In this document: piece after piece, positions 18,436 to 39,646 of the stretch
How positions within the stretch are numbered: position 1 is the first letter of the stretch
Layout: each line of letters starts with the position of its first letter
Position numbers and translations under genes: made by a program
Notes under the pieces: model-generated
What the model saw: the letters and a program-made list of their open reading frames with translations, nothing else
The model's database searches: none
What the model was told of the DNA's origin: nothing
Assembly: GCA_023150835.1 (NCBI GenBank)
Contig: JAKLKB010000063.1
Span: 1-54,762 of the forward strand
Length of the DNA: 54,762 bases
From: Myxococcota bacterium
GTDB lineage: Bacteria; Myxococcota_C; UBA6777
Direction of reading: 5' to 3'

Positions 18436-18878
18436 CCCGGCTCTCCGTTGCCCGTGTGCATATCCAAGTTTTTGTTTCCCTTTATCAAACTACCCTTGCG
18501 CGCAGTGCATCGCATCCTAGCAGATCCAAGATCACTTGGCTACAATCTCGACGCGCTCCTCATCTCTTGCGCCTTTCGCACCTGCCGTCTTCCGCACACA
18601 GCGGCTTGCTCCAAAGAGCTTTTCGGGTCTCGCTTAGAATAATACCTCTCCTCCGCTGAAATCGAAAAAGATGTTGAGTCTTTGCAAAAAAATCCGTACC
18701 CTATCCCAAGACTCCCTTTGTGGCCGCTTTTGACACAACGCGGCCCATTCGCGCTGTCCGCCCCCGCAGATCGAGGCACCAACGATTTCACGATCTCGAT
18801 CTTTTGTTTTCTCCCGAACGGCACATCTTTGATCTCGCATCTCTGGGGCGACCTCTCTTGCTGTTGAAGGCTTTTTCG
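18436..18878. other. 443-bp divergent intergenic region
   Basis: This lies between the start of the minus-strand kinase and the plus-strand repeat-rich gene. No credible gene, element copy or hairpin is seen, and the open plus-strand frame from 18720 lacks a ribosome site. It presumably holds both promoters, which I cannot place. Confidence 0.5.
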
Positions 18879-20039
18879 ATGAAGCAACTCATTGAGCTTA
18901 TCCACGAATATCAAAACCTTAGCCGCAAGCGCAAGCGCTCAAACCAGCCGCTCAGCGAACCAGAACAAGCACGCCTCGATGAACTCCGCCTGTATCTCGA
19001 TCAACATCTGCGCAACGAACACAACGCACACAACGCACACAACGCACACAACGCACACAGCGCACACAGCGCACACAACGCACACAACGCACAACGCCAC
19101 CGCCAAAGCCGACCGCGCATTCAGCCCATCAACCTCGAAGAAACTTACCGCGACCTTGATGCGCTCTCTCTCCAAGCCCCCCAAACAGAGAGATCCGCGC
19201 CTTCCACACAATCACCAGTCTATCATGCCCCATCTTCCGCGCCTTCCACACAATCACCTGCTTACTGCCCCCCATCTTCCGCGCCTTCCACACAATCACC
19301 TGCTTACTGCCCCCCATCTTCCGCACCCTCCACACAATCACCCGCTTACCGCCCCCCATCTTCCGCACCTTCCGCTCAATCAACCACCTATCAGGCTCCA
19401 TCTTCCGCACCTTCTCTTCCAACAAGGCCCGAAGATGCGCCCTACATTCCCTCGGGGCCTTCGCTTCCCGCCGCATCTCTCGAAGTCCTCGACCTTCAGC
19501 GCCTGCGTGAACAAATCGAACACCCCAAACGCACCCATACCGAACAACCCCAACCCGCGTTCCATCCCCCAAGCCATACCAGTATCCACTCGCTCCGCCA
19601 TCTCTCCAACCAAGGCCCTTCTTCGATCGATCAACTCCCCGAAGCCTCTGCACTCAAAACATCTCGCTCTCAACCTCACCCCTCTCAACCCCCCGTCCCT
19701 CCGTCAAATACATCGTCCCAAGACCGCTGGCACTTTCTTCCACGCCCCGCCACCCACGCCGAGGCAGAGGCATTACCTGTTCGCGTTCATTCCCCTTCCA
19801 CCGCCGGTATCGTAGAGCACGACCTTACTCACCTTGGCCTCGAACTCAACCTCCCCGAAGAAGAGACCTCTCACCCCCATTCGTCTCCCTTTGGAACCGC
19901 CGCACCTTCCGCGCTTTCTCTTCCCTTGTTGATCGAACTTCGACGTCTCGAACACAAGCGCCGTCGAAGCCCCCTCGCCGCTCACGAAGAAACCCGCTTT
20001 CGCGAGATCATGGATCAAGTGTTTCTCGCCATCGATTGA
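18879..20039 (+). CDS. Repeat-rich protein with related charged helices at both ends
   Basis: A 386-residue protein of unknown function. The N-terminal 45 residues (LIELIHEYQNLSRKRKRSN, then PLSEPEQARLDELRLYLDQ) and the last 40 (LIELRRLEHKRRRSPLAAHE, then ETRFREIMDQVF) are variants of one helical motif. Similar motifs occur in proteins of myxobacteria, often beside PilZ domains, though no PilZ domain is seen here. Between them lie nine His-Asn-Ala-type tripeptides coded by a 9-bp repeat (19018-19097), then a 42-bp repeat giving PPSSAPSTQSPAY units (19195-19400), then Pro/Ser-rich sequence that is probably disordered. There is no signal peptide or membrane segment. GAAGG precedes the ATG at 18879. 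A scaffold or linker protein is a guess from composition only. Confidence 0.7.
   Translation: MKQLIELIHEYQNLSRKRKRSNQPLSEPEQARLDELRLYLDQHLRNEHNAHNAHNAHNAHSAHSAHNAHNAQRHRQSRPRIQPINLEETYRDLDALSLQAPQTERSAPSTQSPVYHAPSSAPSTQSPAYCPPSSAPSTQSPAYCPPSSAPSTQSPAYRPPSSAPSAQSTTYQAPSSAPSLPTRPEDAPYIPSGPSLPAASLEVLDLQRLREQIEHPKRTHTEQPQPAFHPPSHTSIHSLRHLSNQGPSSIDQLPEASALKTSRSQPHPSQPPVPPSNTSSQDRWHFLPRPATHAEAEALPVRVHSPSTAGIVEHDLTHLGLELNLPEEETSHPHSSPFGTAAPSALSLPLLIELRRLEHKRRRSPLAAHEETRFREIMDQVFLAID
19018..19097 (+). repeat. 9-bp in-frame tandem repeat (His-Asn/Ser-Ala)
   Basis: About nine units of AACGCACAC with two AGC variants, in frame with the host gene, giving a His-rich stretch. The length could vary by slippage without shifting the frame. 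Confidence 0.9.
19195..19400 (+). repeat. 42-bp in-frame tandem repeat
   Basis: About five units containing CCATCTTCCGCGCCTTCCAC and CAATCACCTGCTTA, each giving 14 residues (PPSSAPSTQSPAYC-like). The middle units are nearly identical, suggesting recent expansion. Confidence 0.9.
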
Positions 20040-22210: not shown

Positions 22211-24829
22211 TTAAGGCGAGGGCGAAGCACCAAGTACTTTGCCGAGGGTCTTTTCTATGCCAACGATGTTGTAGGCCCCGACTTGATACAACACCACGCG
22301 GCCTCGGTGAAGCAAGGCAAAGGTCGGCGTTGCACGGATGCGAAACTGTGCCGAGAAGAACCCGTTGGGATCGGAGACATGGGCAAAAGGCATCTTGCGG
22401 GGATGTTGTTTGAGCCAGTCGTCTAAGACTTGCAAACTTTCGGAGCTTACCGCAACGACTTTGAATCCTTTTGAAGCGTACTTTTTCTGCCAGCGACGGA
22501 TCATCGGGATGGGAGGTTTGCACGGGCCGCACCATGTGGCCCAAAAGAAAAACAGCACAGTATCTTTGGCGAGCGCAGGCAAGGCTTCGCGTGCGTAAGG
22601 TTTTTGGGGATCGTGTGGAAAAGTATGGATCGTCATCCACGAACGGATCGATTGCCCGAGAACAGGGGGATGTTTGAGTTGCGGCTCAGTCGTCATGCGT
22701 TGCAGTTGGAGAGACAACGTGAGGCTTTTTCCTTCGCGCAAGACAGCCATCGGTAAGGGCTGATCTGCCGGCGCAAGCATCACTCGCTCACGGATCTCGT
22801 AAGGTTCGTGCAGTGGAGCCCCCCCCACTTCAACGACCGTATCTCCCACACGCAAGCCCGCTTTTTCCGCAGGACTCCCCACCCCAACGAGGCGCACCAA
22901 CACCGCCCCTTTCGGAAGCCCCATCGCCCCTTGCAAGGGGCGAAATTGAATCCCCAACCAAGAAGGCAACGGCGGAGACTTCATCGCCAAAAAAGGCTTC
23001 TCTGCGGCAGAAGGCGCAGGTTTCGGCCCAAGAGGCGTCGCCTCACAAGCCAGCAGACGCGCTAAACCTCCTCGATAAGCCCGCACTTCTGGGCGTGCAT
23101 CCGCCTCCAAAAGAAAACGCCCAGCCATCCGATACAACAGATGATCGATCCGCAACAATGCTGCACTTTGGATCTGGAGCCAAAAGACATAACGGTGCAT
23201 CTCTTGTTCTTTTTCGTGCATCTGCTTGAGACGCAGCGCAAGGCCGGGAACGCCTTGAACATACCGCAAGAAGCCGTCCCGCAGGCGCTCACCAATTGCC
23301 GAATCTTCGGCATCTCCGCCCCCTCGATAGGGTTCGCGCACACACGCGATCCGCTCCTGAGACCAAGAAGGCCCATGCCACACCAACTGCGCCAGCGTAG
23401 GCGTAGCATGGGTGTGTTGTGCCAAGCGTTGGAGCTCCATCCGCACCAAATGCTGCATCTTTGGGTTTTGTGCGTACCAACGTTTGAGGTGATGATCGCG
23501 AGCGGTACGAAACAACGTCTGCCATTGATTTTCAACATTTTTCCACCACTGATAGCGCTGTTGCAAAACCTTTTGCTGTTCGTGTGAAGCGGCGATGCTC
23601 ACAGGACGGGGAAGATCAAAACGCCGAGCGACCGCCAAGATCATCGCTTGATCTTCTTGTGTGGCGGTATCTTTTTGCGCGGCATAACGGCGCAACAGTC
23701 GATCCGTCAAGTCGGTCAATGTCACCCCTTGTTCGCGGGCCTCGGCCTCCAATATCGAACGCAGATAACTATCCGAGCTGCGGATCGGGACGTCAGGCGT
23801 CCGATCTGTCAAAAGGACGGTGCGATGGGCTTCATCAAATGTTTTTGCGTGTTTCATCGCCAAGATAAAGTGATAAGCATGCCCAATCGACTCCCCAAGC
23901 CGTGTATCCGCAAAACACCCATACGCGGGGCGATCGGGCGTGGTTGCAAAAAAGCCACAGCGATCTCCACTCGGTACATTCAACTGCGAGGGTTGTGGGT
24001 AGATGCTCCACGCAAAAGAACCCGAAAAGCATTGCGACATCACAGAGATCACACGGCGCGCTCCAAAAGGCTGCAACATCCGATGGTAGGACTGTACATC
24101 AAGGTTATCTCGCCACAGCGAGATGTAATGATTGCGCGTCGAAGAATCGCGATTTTGCGTCCCATGATCGGTGACAAACATCAACACAGGGCGCGGATCT
24201 TCGGGCGCTATCTGCTGTGCGATACGACGGGTTTGATCGCGCAACACCTCTTGCGTGGCCGCCAGTAGGCGCGCCCCTTGGATCTGTGTATTCACCAGTT
24301 TTGGCTTCTCCGCAAAGAACCGACTTTCGGGGATGTGCGCAAACAGTTCTGAACCGACGACGTTGCGAGAGCGCAAGACCAATAGATCTTCGCTTGGATC
24401 GTCGCCATCGGACGCAAACACCGTCATCGCAGGCGAAGACATCCCCCGCCCTTGCAGCGTCCCAAGCATCATCCGCAGATACAACACATGCGAATAAAAG
24501 TTGAGTTGTGGCTGCGCTCCACCGTTGAGCAAAAAAGCATGCGCCAACGCAGCCGAGCGCCAACGCCCTCCTGCCTGTGGCGCTCCAGCCAGACGCTCAG
24601 GCTGTGGACGCAGGGGAGGCGTCACGGGACGAGGTGGTGTCGCAGGACGCACCAACGATGTGCTGGCTGTAGGCTTTTTCGGCCAATGCGCGTGAACGTC
24701 CACCTCTTTGCGTTGTTGTACCCGTGTCGTCGTGCAGGCCCCCAACAACCCCCATCCAAGCCCCAAAAGCCCCAAAACCACCCCGATACGTTGGGATGGT
24801 GATGTCTGAACACGTTGAGATATCTTCAT
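22211..24829 (-). CDS. Lipoprotein fusing a C13/caspase-like domain, PDZ domain and thioredoxin domain
   Basis: An 872-residue lipoprotein (lipobox LLGAC, Cys32). Residues about 95-330 resemble clan-CD proteases of the legumain/GPI-transamidase (C13) type: a strand MTVFASDGDDPSED, then the His of MFVTDHGTQ (His222) at the end of a hydrophobic strand and the Cys of VMSQCFSGSF (Cys267) at the end of the next, the expected His-Cys dyad. A helical region follows (about 330-600). A PDZ domain lies at about 640-735 (LGIQFRPL, GSPAEKAGLRVGDTVVEV). The C-terminal domain (about 745-870) is a TlpA/ResA-type thioredoxin with FWATWCGPCK (Cys767, Cys770) and the cis-Pro in RATPTF. The start at 24829 has AGGAAGG upstream. 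Neighbours are an FGE-fold protein and an acyl-CoA ligase. Substrate and localisation side are unknown. Confidence 0.85.
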   Translation of the reverse strand: MKISQRVQTSPSQRIGVVLGLLGLGWGLLGACTTTRVQQRKEVDVHAHWPKKPTASTSLVRPATPPRPVTPPLRPQPERLAGAPQAGGRWRSAALAHAFLLNGGAQPQLNFYSHVLYLRMMLGTLQGRGMSSPAMTVFASDGDDPSEDLLVLRSRNVVGSELFAHIPESRFFAEKPKLVNTQIQGARLLAATQEVLRDQTRRIAQQIAPEDPRPVLMFVTDHGTQNRDSSTRNHYISLWRDNLDVQSYHRMLQPFGARRVISVMSQCFSGSFAWSIYPQPSQLNVPSGDRCGFFATTPDRPAYGCFADTRLGESIGHAYHFILAMKHAKTFDEAHRTVLLTDRTPDVPIRSSDSYLRSILEAEAREQGVTLTDLTDRLLRRYAAQKDTATQEDQAMILAVARRFDLPRPVSIAASHEQQKVLQQRYQWWKNVENQWQTLFRTARDHHLKRWYAQNPKMQHLVRMELQRLAQHTHATPTLAQLVWHGPSWSQERIACVREPYRGGGDAEDSAIGERLRDGFLRYVQGVPGLALRLKQMHEKEQEMHRYVFWLQIQSAALLRIDHLLYRMAGRFLLEADARPEVRAYRGGLARLLACEATPLGPKPAPSAAEKPFLAMKSPPLPSWLGIQFRPLQGAMGLPKGAVLVRLVGVGSPAEKAGLRVGDTVVEVGGAPLHEPYEIRERVMLAPADQPLPMAVLREGKSLTLSLQLQRMTTEPQLKHPPVLGQSIRSWMTIHTFPHDPQKPYAREALPALAKDTVLFFFWATWCGPCKPPIPMIRRWQKKYASKGFKVVAVSSESLQVLDDWLKQHPRKMPFAHVSDPNGFFSAQFRIRATPTFALLHRGRVVLYQVGAYNIVGIEKTLGKVLGASPSP

Positions 24830-24908
24830 TTTCGCCCTTCCTCTCGCCATGAGACGCCCCCTCAAGATTTGTTGAACACACAGCGCTGTCAATCCTCCAA
24901 CCTAATTT

Positions 24909-32278: not shown

Positions 32279-34066
32279 TTAGCGGCACTCTTGCGGCTTC
32301 GAGATCGTTAAGGGAAAGCACTTTCCTACATCAAAGCGGCAAGCGTCAACCCAGCTTCCATTTTTTCCGCAATCAGGGATGCCATCGACAAAGCCTTGGT
32401 CAAACAAAGGTGTTGTGCAACCCTTACAAGATCCGACTTGGGTGTAGCGTTTTTGTTGCGTGTTGTCGCAGTTGTAATCAAAGCTCCCATCCCCCCGATG
32501 CACCGAGAAAAACCCTGTTTGCCCGGGGAAAACATCTTTGTTTTTGTCGTAGCAGTCTTGGTTGTTTGTTGCGTAGCCTGCGGGTTTTGTGCATGCCTTG
32601 AGTGGTTTGGCGGGATCACCGTACCCATCGCCGTCGGTGTCTGCATAGTAGGTAAAGCCCGATGCGCCGTTGTCGATCTGACCGTCGCAGTCGTCATCCA
32701 CGCCGTTGCAGATCTCTTGACGCGGAGGTTCGAGCGGCTCGCAGGTTTCCTTTCCGGCTTTGCAGACATAAGCACCGCGATCACAGATCCCCGGCTTTCC
32801 TGTGTTGCAGAAGCGCCCCATATTCGGGGAGTTTTCGTCGATCAAACCATCGCAGTCATTGTCGATGCCATCGCAGATCTCGGCTTGTGGCAAGACTTGC
32901 CCTTGACAAGGCCCCCATGTTCCGTTGCCTTGACAAGTGCGCGTCCCCTCTTTGCAAGGGGCTCGGCCTTGTGTACCTGCGGGGCCGCTGTAGCAAGGTT
33001 GCGTCGTTCCCGCTTTGCAGGCCGTACAGTTCTCATCGACTAATCCATCGCAGTTGTTGTCTTTTCCATCACAACCTGCCTCTGCTCCGGCTTGATAATC
33101 GACCGAGTGTTTGACATACGTCGCATCATCACACGAAAGCCATCCCTTGGCTCCACCGCAAAGCTGTGTTGCCCCTGCGCAGATCCCTGTCTGTTTCGGA
33201 CACAACGGCCCACGTATATCGTTATCGACCAATCCATCGCAGTTGTCGTCGATGCCATTGCATTGTTCGAGGGTTGGCTTGACAAAGCCTGCGCAAGCCC
33301 CCCATCGACCGTTCGCTTGGCAGATCTGCGCTCCGACTTTGCACGAGCCTTTGCAAGAATACGCGGTGGTTGCGATCTTTTCGCATCCTGAGGTGTTTGT
33401 GGGATAACATTGCTGCTGCTCCCCTTGGCGGCACTCAAAACAATTGTCGTCGATCTGCCCGTTGCAGTCGTTGTCTTCGCCATCGCATCGCTCTTCTTTG
33501 GGCAAGACTTCTCCAACGCAGTTCCCCCACGTCTTGTCGGATCGGCAGGTCTGTACGCCATCTCGACACAACCCACGCAGCCTTGTTCCTTGCGGGCCGT
33601 TATAACAGCTTCGCGTCTCACCCGCTTTACAAACACCGCAACCATCGTCCACAAGACCGTTGCAATCGTCGTCATAACCATTCGCACAGATCTCTTTTTC
33701 GGGCAGGATCTCTCCAACGCATTCGCCCCACACACCGCGCACACACAGCTGCTCACCAAGCTGACAGATCCCCACGCCTTTGGTGGTCGCGGGGCCAGAA
33801 TAACACGAGCGGCGTTGTCCTGTTTCGCAAGTTCCCGTTGTACCGTCGCCGCCACCGCCATCGGAGATATCTCCGTCGACGGAGCTTTTTTCGATGTGGC
33901 TTCCTTCTACGCCACTGCGCAAGACGCAGCGTCCCCCCACGCAGGTGTAATCAACACTAAAACAATCCAAATCCTTGTGACAATCGGGCTTTTGAAAGAG
34001 GCCACAGCCCATTCCCCACCACAAACCGCCCAACAAACAAAGGCCCCAAACCTTCTTGATCCACAT
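32279..34066 (-). CDS. MopE-like Cys-rich, putative metal-binding lipoprotein
   Basis: A 595-residue lipoprotein (lipobox GMGC, Cys21). It starts with a CxxDxDC-type Cys motif and then alternates two repeat types. The first gives six MopE-type motifs of the form C-x-G-x-D-(D/N)-(D/N)-C-(D/N)-G-x-(I/V)-D (for example EICDGIDNDCDGLIDE). The second type has CYSGPAGTQGRAPCKEG followed by GNGTWGPCQGQVLP. Near the end are a type-3 Asp-rich calcium-like stretch (YYADTDGDGYGDP) and a Cys-rich C-terminus. MopE-type repeats are annotated as putative metal binding by analogy with the surface protein MopE of Methylococcus. The many Cys pairs need disulfide formation in the periplasm or outside. It sits upstream of the small lipoprotein in the same direction. 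Confidence 0.9.
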   Translation of the reverse strand: MWIKKVWGLCLLGGLWWGMGCGLFQKPDCHKDLDCFSVDYTCVGGRCVLRSGVEGSHIEKSSVDGDISDGGGGDGTTGTCETGQRRSCYSGPATTKGVGICQLGEQLCVRGVWGECVGEILPEKEICANGYDDDCNGLVDDGCGVCKAGETRSCYNGPQGTRLRGLCRDGVQTCRSDKTWGNCVGEVLPKEERCDGEDNDCNGQIDDNCFECRQGEQQQCYPTNTSGCEKIATTAYSCKGSCKVGAQICQANGRWGACAGFVKPTLEQCNGIDDNCDGLVDNDIRGPLCPKQTGICAGATQLCGGAKGWLSCDDATYVKHSVDYQAGAEAGCDGKDNNCDGLVDENCTACKAGTTQPCYSGPAGTQGRAPCKEGTRTCQGNGTWGPCQGQVLPQAEICDGIDNDCDGLIDENSPNMGRFCNTGKPGICDRGAYVCKAGKETCEPLEPPRQEICNGVDDDCDGQIDNGASGFTYYADTDGDGYGDPAKPLKACTKPAGYATNNQDCYDKNKDVFPGQTGFFSVHRGDGSFDYNCDNTQQKRYTQVGSCKGCTTPLFDQGFVDGIPDCGKNGSWVDACRFDVGKCFPLTISKPQECR

Positions 34067-37597: not shown

Positions 37598-39646
37598 ATG
37601 TCCCCGTACGAAACGCCCTCCAACACCCACGCTGTGATCACGCCCGACTGTTCGGGATTACAACAACCACACGATGCTTTTTCAACACAACCCATCCCAC
37701 AAAGCGCACTCACCGACGCTCTGGATCGCGGCCTCGCCTTTTTTGCATCGATCCAAGAAGAGGACGGGAGTTGGTGTGGTGATTATGGCGGTCCAATGTT
37801 CTTGCTTCCGATGTACGTCGCCGCCACCGCCATCTGCAAACGCCCTCCAAGCGAGACCCAACGCGCCGAGATGGTGCGTTATTTCCTCAGTGCGCAAAAT
37901 GCCGATGGTGGCGTGGGGATCCACGCCGAAGCCGACGAAAGCATGATGTTTACGACGGTCCTTTCGTACGTTGCGCTGCGTTTGTTGGATGAGGCCCCTG
38001 ATCGCGAAGAGATGGCCCGTATGCGCCGATGGATCCGCGATCACGGTAGTGCGCTGGCTGCGGCAAGTTGGGCCAAATGGATCTTGTGTGTTCTCCATCT
38101 CTACGAATACGACGGCCTACATCCGATCCTCCCCGAACTGTATCTGCTCCCTGCACAAGCCCCCCTTCATCCCGGACATCTGTGGTGTCACGCACGCCAA
38201 GTTTATCTGCCGATGGCCTACCTCTACGGAACAAGAGCCAAGATACCAGCAGATCCGCGCATTCAGGCCCTACGCAGCGAGATCTACACACAGCCTTACG
38301 AACGCATCCGCTTCGCCAAACACCGCGACACACTTTGCCCGAACGACCGCTCCTACACGTTGTCTCCGTTTGCACATCTCGCCAATGCCGCCATGCACGC
38401 CTTCGAGCGCTTGCACTCCCCCGTGTTGCGCAAACGCGCCCTCGATGAAGTCAAACGCCACATCGACCACGAAGACCGATCCACAAACTTTATCCGCATC
38501 GGCCCCGTCAACGCCGTCCTCAACACCCTTGTTCATTACTTTGATAATCCTCAAGGTGCAGGGCATTTGCGCAGTTGGGAGACGCTGCCGACGTACCTTT
38601 GGCAAGGGCACGACGGCCTCAAGATGAATGGCTATAACTCCTGCAAACTCTGGGACACCGCCTTTGCGGTGCAGGCCATCCAAGCCACTCCCCACGCCGA
38701 AACCTCTACAGCCCAAGCCGCGCTACAACAGGCTTACCGCTACATCAAAAACAATCAAGTCCTCGAAGATGTCCCCGAAAAAGACCGTTATTTCCGTCAC
38801 GCAAGCCGAGGTGGGTGGCCGTTTAGTGATCGCCTTCATGGGTGGCCGATCACCGATTGCACCTCCGAAGGTTTCAAAGCAGCCGTCGCTCTTGAAGCAC
38901 AAGCCACCGATCCGATCTCCGAAGATCTGTTGCGCGACAGCATCCGCTTGATCCTTTCCTTCCAAAATCCAGACGGAGGATGGGCCTCTTATGAACGACA
39001 ACGCACAGGCTCGTGGATCGAGCGTTTCAATCCCTCCCAAGCTTTTCGCGATATCATGGTCGATTATTCTTATACCGAATGCACTTCGGCCTGCCTTCAA
39101 GCCCTCGATACCGCACAACAGCGTTTTCCGGGATTTTTGACAGGGCAGATCGAACGCGCCAAACAGCGCGGACAACAATTCTTGCGCGACAAGCAGCGCG
39201 AAGACGGCAGTTGGGAAGGGTCTTGGGCTGTGTGCTTCACCTATGGAACATGGTTTGGCGTGTGGGGACTGCTCGCCACAGGCATTCCCTCCGATGCACC
39301 CGCCATCCAAAAAGCATGCGCCTTTTTACTCGATCACCAACACCAAGACGGCGGATGGGGCGAACACTATCAAAGCTGCCTTCAACGCCATTATGTCGAT
39401 CACCCAAACGCGCAAGCCGTCCAAACCGCGTGGGCGCTGATGACCCTCTGCAAGGCAGGTCACGCCCAACATCCCGCCGCCCACCGCGCAGCCCGATTCC
39501 TCGTGCAACGCCAACAAGCCGATGGAGACTGGCCTCGCGAAGCAATGGTTGGCGTCTTTAACAAAACCACCCTGATCAATTACGAAAACTATCGGCGCAC
39601 CTTCTGCCTTTGGGCTCTTGGCCTGTACACACAGGCCCACGCATAG
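37598..39646 (+). CDS. Oxidosqualene cyclase (sterol-forming, cycloartenol-synthase-like residues)
   Basis: A 682-residue triterpene cyclase. The acid motif is DCTSE (Asp420) as in oxidosqualene cyclases, not the DxDDTA of squalene-hopene cyclases. The C-terminal half matches lanosterol/cycloartenol synthases closely (DIMVDYSYTECTSACLQAL, DGSWEGSWAVCFTYGTWFG, GDWPREAMVGVFNKT). QW-type repeats are spread through the protein. Three positions that steer product outcome read Tyr346 (NGYN), His414 and Ile418 (HGWPITD). These correspond to Tyr410, His477 and Ile481 of plant cycloartenol synthase, so cycloartenol is the predicted product. No membrane anchor or signal is seen; the family is monotopic. 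AGAGG lies a few bases ahead of the ATG. Squalene monooxygenase, needed to make the substrate, is not in the window. Confidence 0.92.
   Translation: MSPYETPSNTHAVITPDCSGLQQPHDAFSTQPIPQSALTDALDRGLAFFASIQEEDGSWCGDYGGPMFLLPMYVAATAICKRPPSETQRAEMVRYFLSAQNADGGVGIHAEADESMMFTTVLSYVALRLLDEAPDREEMARMRRWIRDHGSALAAASWAKWILCVLHLYEYDGLHPILPELYLLPAQAPLHPGHLWCHARQVYLPMAYLYGTRAKIPADPRIQALRSEIYTQPYERIRFAKHRDTLCPNDRSYTLSPFAHLANAAMHAFERLHSPVLRKRALDEVKRHIDHEDRSTNFIRIGPVNAVLNTLVHYFDNPQGAGHLRSWETLPTYLWQGHDGLKMNGYNSCKLWDTAFAVQAIQATPHAETSTAQAALQQAYRYIKNNQVLEDVPEKDRYFRHASRGGWPFSDRLHGWPITDCTSEGFKAAVALEAQATDPISEDLLRDSIRLILSFQNPDGGWASYERQRTGSWIERFNPSQAFRDIMVDYSYTECTSACLQALDTAQQRFPGFLTGQIERAKQRGQQFLRDKQREDGSWEGSWAVCFTYGTWFGVWGLLATGIPSDAPAIQKACAFLLDHQHQDGGWGEHYQSCLQRHYVDHPNAQAVQTAWALMTLCKAGHAQHPAAHRAARFLVQRQQADGDWPREAMVGVFNKTTLINYENYRRTFCLWALGLYTQAHA

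Follow-up and report, generated by a model that had tools for sequence, protein, structure and literature searches.

The oxidosqualene cyclase locus

The window (the whole stretch of DNA analyzed here, 54,762 nucleotides) carries an intact open reading frame on the forward strand, opening with an ATG at 37598 and running through its stop codon to 39646, whose predicted product is a 682-aa oxidosqualene cyclase (OSC). The gene and the sites within it that bear on catalysis and product control, with the evidence for each in parentheses, are as follows.

37598..39646, + strand: oxidosqualene cyclase (OSC), predicted cycloartenol synthase, 682 aa (TIGR01787, human OSC match, AlphaFold2 model, dN/dS)
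38633..38635, + strand: codon of Tyr346, human position 381 (sequence and alignment)
38837..38839, + strand: codon of His414, human position 449 (sequence and alignment)
38849..38851, + strand: codon of Ile418, human position 453 (sequence and alignment)
38855..38869, + strand: DCTSE motif, with Asp420 as the predicted catalytic acid, human Asp455 (sequence and alignment)

The OSC gene is flanked by inositol monophosphatase-like and NamZ genes on the reverse strand and by an FHA-GAF-adenylate cyclase gene on the forward strand, and no sterol genes were recognized beside it within the window. An earlier note on this DNA had described the gene as standing alone, which is true of its neighborhood, where the flanking genes are not sterol genes, but not of the genome, in which a squalene epoxidase lies on another contig (C235). 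Promoter and terminator scans returned no more than in shuffled sequences. Elsewhere in the window are an 893-aa protein (22211-24892, - strand) in which a PDZ domain and a C-terminal thioredoxin-like domain accompany a caspase/legumain-like (Peptidase C13) match that is weak and below threshold, a low-complexity open reading frame (18720-20039, + strand) containing stretches of NAH/SAH repeats and recurring PSSAPSTQSPAY-like units, and a cysteine-rich protein (32279-34066, - strand) with repeated MopE-type metal-binding motifs (PF11617).

Family models, sequence search and structure comparison bear out the earlier identification of a bacterial OSC. The protein matches TIGR01787 (squalene/oxidosqualene cyclases) over residues 41-678, i.e., full-length, with 587 bits against a cut-off of 322.7, and Pfam likewise recognizes the two halves of the squalene cyclase fold. 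It scores below the curated cut-off of the 2,3-oxidosqualene cyclase subfamily TIGR03463 (718.8 versus 851 bits), as do ~26 other OSCs (658-838 bits) of the G032 phylum—which we took to be Myxococcota, or its part with Stigmatella-like genera—so we regard this model as narrow. Of the proteins with solved structures, its best match is human lanosterol synthase (1w6k; phmmer E 1e-174), which is 40% identical over its full length and shares the catalytic acid and the checked pocket residues, but has an N-terminus ~35 residues longer. An AlphaFold2 model built from an input of 19 bacterial OSCs (mean pLDDT 87.7, pTM 0.88; first 26 residues of low confidence) superimposes on 1w6k with Z 46.0 and an rmsd of 1.7 over 649 residues, above the Z 41.3 obtained against squalene-hopene cyclase, and a Foldseek comparison agrees.

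That the protein is instead a squalene-hopene-type cyclase (SHC) acting on squalene is exceedingly improbable: the two enzymes share a superfamily and a fold, and the SHC model TIGR01507 does return 242.8 bits, but this lies far under its cut-off of 431.1, the acid motif is DCTSE rather than the DxDDT of SHCs, the aligned SHCs have Asp at human position 453 where this protein has Ile, and the genome holds an epoxidase.

Catalytic motif and product-control residues

When the protein is aligned to human lanosterol synthase with MAFFT, Tyr346, His414, Ile418 and Asp420 fall on T381, C449, V453 and D455, respectively; by established numbering, we take the first three to be the equivalents of Tyr410, His477 and Ile481 of Arabidopsis CAS1. 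The DCTSE motif starts at residue 420, as had been claimed, and the cycloartenol-type triad Tyr346/His414/Ile418 named in the earlier note can be read directly from the sequence, in place of the T381/C449/V453 of the human enzyme. Beyond the triad, all nine human OSC positions checked (Y98, H232, F444, D455, C456, Y503, C533, W581 and F696) are conserved in the window OSC, and D420, C421 and T422 are invariant across 19 OSCs.

It is rather unlikely that the gene encodes a functional OSC whose main product is lanosterol or parkeol, or that gives a mixture. A few residues govern the product of an OSC, and positions beyond the Y/H/I triad can alter it too. One member of the clade in which the window OSC sits has a changed triad (L116, Y/N/T), and the window OSC itself is far from any characterized enzyme: apart from its nearest relative (93% identity), no sampled OSC is more than 56% identical to it. 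Against this, the triad is complete: according to PMC5101207, Y/H/I is invariable in cycloartenol synthases and Val marks lanosterol synthases at the third position, human position 453, where this protein has Ile. Furthermore, Wei et al. (PMC4919349) found that cycloartenol production went with Ile453 in every bacterium they tested, and 51 of 58 aligned bacterial OSCs carry Y/H/I, the exceptions being Y/N/T, Y/N/V, Y/Q/V, Y/Q/T and A/H/V. Among these exceptions, A/H/V occurs in L083 and L122 (genomes G444 and G305), Y/N/V in L112 (G302) and Y/Q/V in L109 and L113 (G398 and G477); Y/N/V is also the triad given for the lanosterol synthase of Saprolegnia (PMC5101207).

Phylogenetic placement and native status

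Five genomes of the window's phylum were sampled, all from one family, and an OSC was found in three of them. For clarity, we refer to the window's own genome as G000, to a second metagenome-assembled genome (MAG) of the same genus as G001, and to a further genome of the same family as G002. In the G032 phylum, ~55 of 195 genomes carry an OSC, mostly with the Y/H/I triad, such that the earlier statement that sterol synthesis is rare in bacteria needs qualification.

The earlier note had also proposed placing the gene in an OSC tree. There, 100/100 support sets the OSC branch apart from the SHC outgroup, and the window OSC sits on the OSC side in a 19-row, Myxococcota-type clade (100/100) of G032-phylum OSCs. 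Residues, scores and tree together led us to reject the identities of squalene-hopene cyclase and lanosterol synthase. Constraining the window OSC to group with the OSC of the same-family genome G002 was rejected (AU p 0.003). As the window OSC groups with G032-phylum OSCs and its union with the G002 OSC is rejected, the tree suggests, with the usual long-branch caution, that the OSC was exchanged between lineages.

The same discordance, in data from a MAG, could be read as a contig misplaced in the bin, with an OSC from another organism. We consider this very unlikely. The second same-genus MAG (Myxococcota bacterium KLAP109, taken as G001) has the OSC with the same flanking genes at 90-92% DNA identity, and its squalene epoxidase and crt loci match the window genome at levels of identity similar to those of the OSC locus. 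The GC content of the OSC gene (0.567; GC3 0.61) is likewise in line with the neighboring genes. Bin contamination was thus rejected on synteny and composition.

A contig search from the OSC sequence found KLAP109 as the sole close relative, the other matches being squalene-hopene cyclases or fragments. The OSCs of the two same-genus MAGs are 93% identical, with dN 0.038, dS 0.29-0.33 and a dN/dS of ~0.12. This syntenic, 93% identical copy and the low dN/dS show that the OSC gene is native and under purifying selection.

Squalene epoxidase and downstream genes

A single squalene/oxidosqualene cyclase was found in the window genome (7.56 Mb, 93% complete, 2% contamination), with no second one, of the hopene type or otherwise. 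The earlier note had held that a genome lacking squalene epoxidase would count against its reading; the genome search found an intact one (contig C235:171738-172547, 269 bits), a protein of 476 aa that retains the GDAYNMRHP motif and has a dN/dS of 0.07 between the two same-genus MAGs. Its best solved relative is human SQLE (6c6n; 39% identical, E 4e-80), a eukaryotic squalene monooxygenase, from which this bacterial protein differs in a shorter N-terminus; myxobacterial and plasmid-borne epoxidases are 26-32% identical to it.

In the epoxidase tree, which included one eukaryotic sequence and no epoxidases from Nannocystaceae, methanotrophs or planctomycetes, the G000, G001 and G002 proteins cluster with human SQLE (100/100 support) and not with the myxobacterial and plasmid-borne enzymes. 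Given that sampling, we treat the apparent grouping of the family's epoxidase with the human rather than the myxobacterial enzyme as a lead only. Monophyly of the three bacterial epoxidases to the exclusion of the human one was not rejected (p 0.13), and a transfer from eukaryote to bacterium is therefore not established. The OSCs closest to the window's in the OSC tree (L110, L114, L116 and L129) come from genomes that are 92-100% complete (G295, G296, G453 and G293), and no squalene epoxidase match (PF08491) was found for these four (for G453, among the matches listed); they may have an alternative epoxidase, or the match may have been missed.

The earlier note had suggested a search for C14-modifying genes. 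CYP51 is most likely absent from the window genome, because a P450 search (PF00067) that detects 19 members in G002 and 13 in G004, both of the same family, matched none in G000 or G001; the predicted end product is therefore unprocessed cycloartenol. Sterol methyltransferase (PF08498) gave no match anywhere, the controls being silent too.

Squalene supply

No squalene synthase was recognized in either same-genus MAG (G000, 93% complete; G001, 86% complete). Both have a single squalene/phytoene synthase domain (PF00494), which in G000 is part of a carotenoid-type fusion on contig C90 (L022:6584-13047) of 1025 aa, combining a CruF-like hydratase, a polyprenyl synthetase and a CrtB/HpnD-like domain. 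This fusion is adjoined by a crtI-family gene and a CarH-like B12-binding regulator. The locus thus reads as a carotenoid locus, and the fusion as a putative, unusual three-domain carotenoid enzyme. In G002, by contrast, epoxidase, OSC and a separate squalene-synthase-like gene lie within ~6 kb; used as a query against G000, G001, G003 and G004, the latter gene returned only weak matches to carotenoid-type PF00494 genes or at chance level, and no separate counterpart.

These data bear on the alternative that the pathway is a relic or is fed externally, with its genes retained and squalene scavenged by a genus that has lost its squalene synthase—an alternative that concerns substrate supply and is compatible with the cycloartenol reading. 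The lack of a recognized synthase in both MAGs, set beside its presence in G002, speaks for it, and chance absence from both would be ~1% if their gaps were independent. Yet both MAGs are drafts (239 and ~520 contigs), from which one locus could be missing twice, and the PF00494 domain of the C90 fusion, whose highest score is to HpnD (204 bits, short of the cut-off of 279), leaves room for an unusual squalene-forming role; the low dN/dS further argues against a relic. On balance, we consider a relic or external feeding unlikely. Squalene in this genus may come from a synthase that is missing from the two drafts, may be made by the C90 fusion, or may be taken up.

A probable cycloartenol synthase and its closest known systems

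Homology, fold, catalytic and product-control residues, the epoxidase, the searches that returned no P450, and purifying selection form the basis for reading the gene as a functional OSC that probably makes cycloartenol. This interpretation, proposed in the earlier note, is strengthened by the OSC identity, the triad and its published correlation with product (PMC4919349, PMC5101207), and the presence of the epoxidase, with the product itself being a prediction. From established OSC chemistry, we infer a reaction course in which Asp420 would protonate the epoxide of (3S)-2,3-oxidosqualene, a substrate that the epoxidase from contig C235 would supply, and the chain would fold and cyclize to the protosteryl cation, followed by hydride and methyl shifts. 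Tyr346, His414 and Ile418 would then direct proton loss from C19 to close the 9,19-cyclopropane ring, instead of the deprotonation that gives lanosterol. If the genome has no P450, and hence no C14 demethylation by CYP51, the pathway would end, as it does in Stigmatella and Cystobacter, at cycloartenol, perhaps in a C24-reduced form. Product, expression, squalene source and membrane role are likewise inferred.

The closest known systems are the cycloartenol synthases of Stigmatella, Cystobacter (both of which have cycloartenol as pathway end product) and other Myxococcaceae, which form the TIGR03463 group and resemble the window OSC in length, in the Y/H/I triad and in the presence of an epoxidase in the genome. 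However, the sampled OSCs that exceed or approach the TIGR03463 cut-off are only ~42-48% identical to the window OSC, which falls under that cut-off, is not adjacent to its epoxidase and is accompanied by an epoxidase of another type. Most Myxococcaceae are without downstream sterol genes (PMC12004948). Uncultured Myxococcota MAGs, for which 121 OSCs have been reported (PMC12004948), offer a second comparison: the clade of the window OSC includes OSCs from families f223, f233 and f238 and from several genera of f29, almost all of them with Y/H/I, but the window's host lies outside the G032 phylum in the classification used and its OSC reaches at most the above 56% identity to those sampled in this analysis. 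Genes do not prove sterol production, since Corallococcus coralloides has both genes and no sterols were detected in it (PMC4919349).

Implications

Cycloartenol, the first plant-type sterol, is generally taken to come from plants and algae. OSCs with the plant-type triad are already known in myxobacteria, and the window OSC is a further case; less expected in its genome are the animal-like squalene epoxidase and the lack of any P450 match and of a recognizable squalene synthase. One explanation, which we offer as speculative and judge unlikely as a whole, is a mosaic cycloartenol route in a small phylum-level lineage, in which a eukaryote-type epoxidase held by the family would act with a cyclase exchanged with Myxococcota, on squalene that is scavenged or comes from an unusual fused prenyl synthase. 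If so, the epoxidase would represent a bacterial branch near the eukaryotic one, bearing on how eukaryotes acquired sterol synthesis. A Myxococcota-type cyclase paired with a eukaryote-type epoxidase would also be a concrete, testable case of the piecewise inheritance of sterol genes that has been raised for Myxococcota (PMC12004948). More broadly, another bacterial lineage predicted to be capable of cycloartenol synthesis would enlarge the range of organisms other than eukaryotes from which sterol biomarkers might come.

Plasmid searches returned distant OSC cassettes only. In Streptomyces sp. YIM 121038 and Planktothrix agardhii, plasmid-borne genes that distantly resemble OSCs (L176 and L177; 35-36% identity) have squalene/phytoene synthase and FAD monooxygenase genes within a few kb and transposases nearby; these loci are possibly mobile triterpene cassettes.
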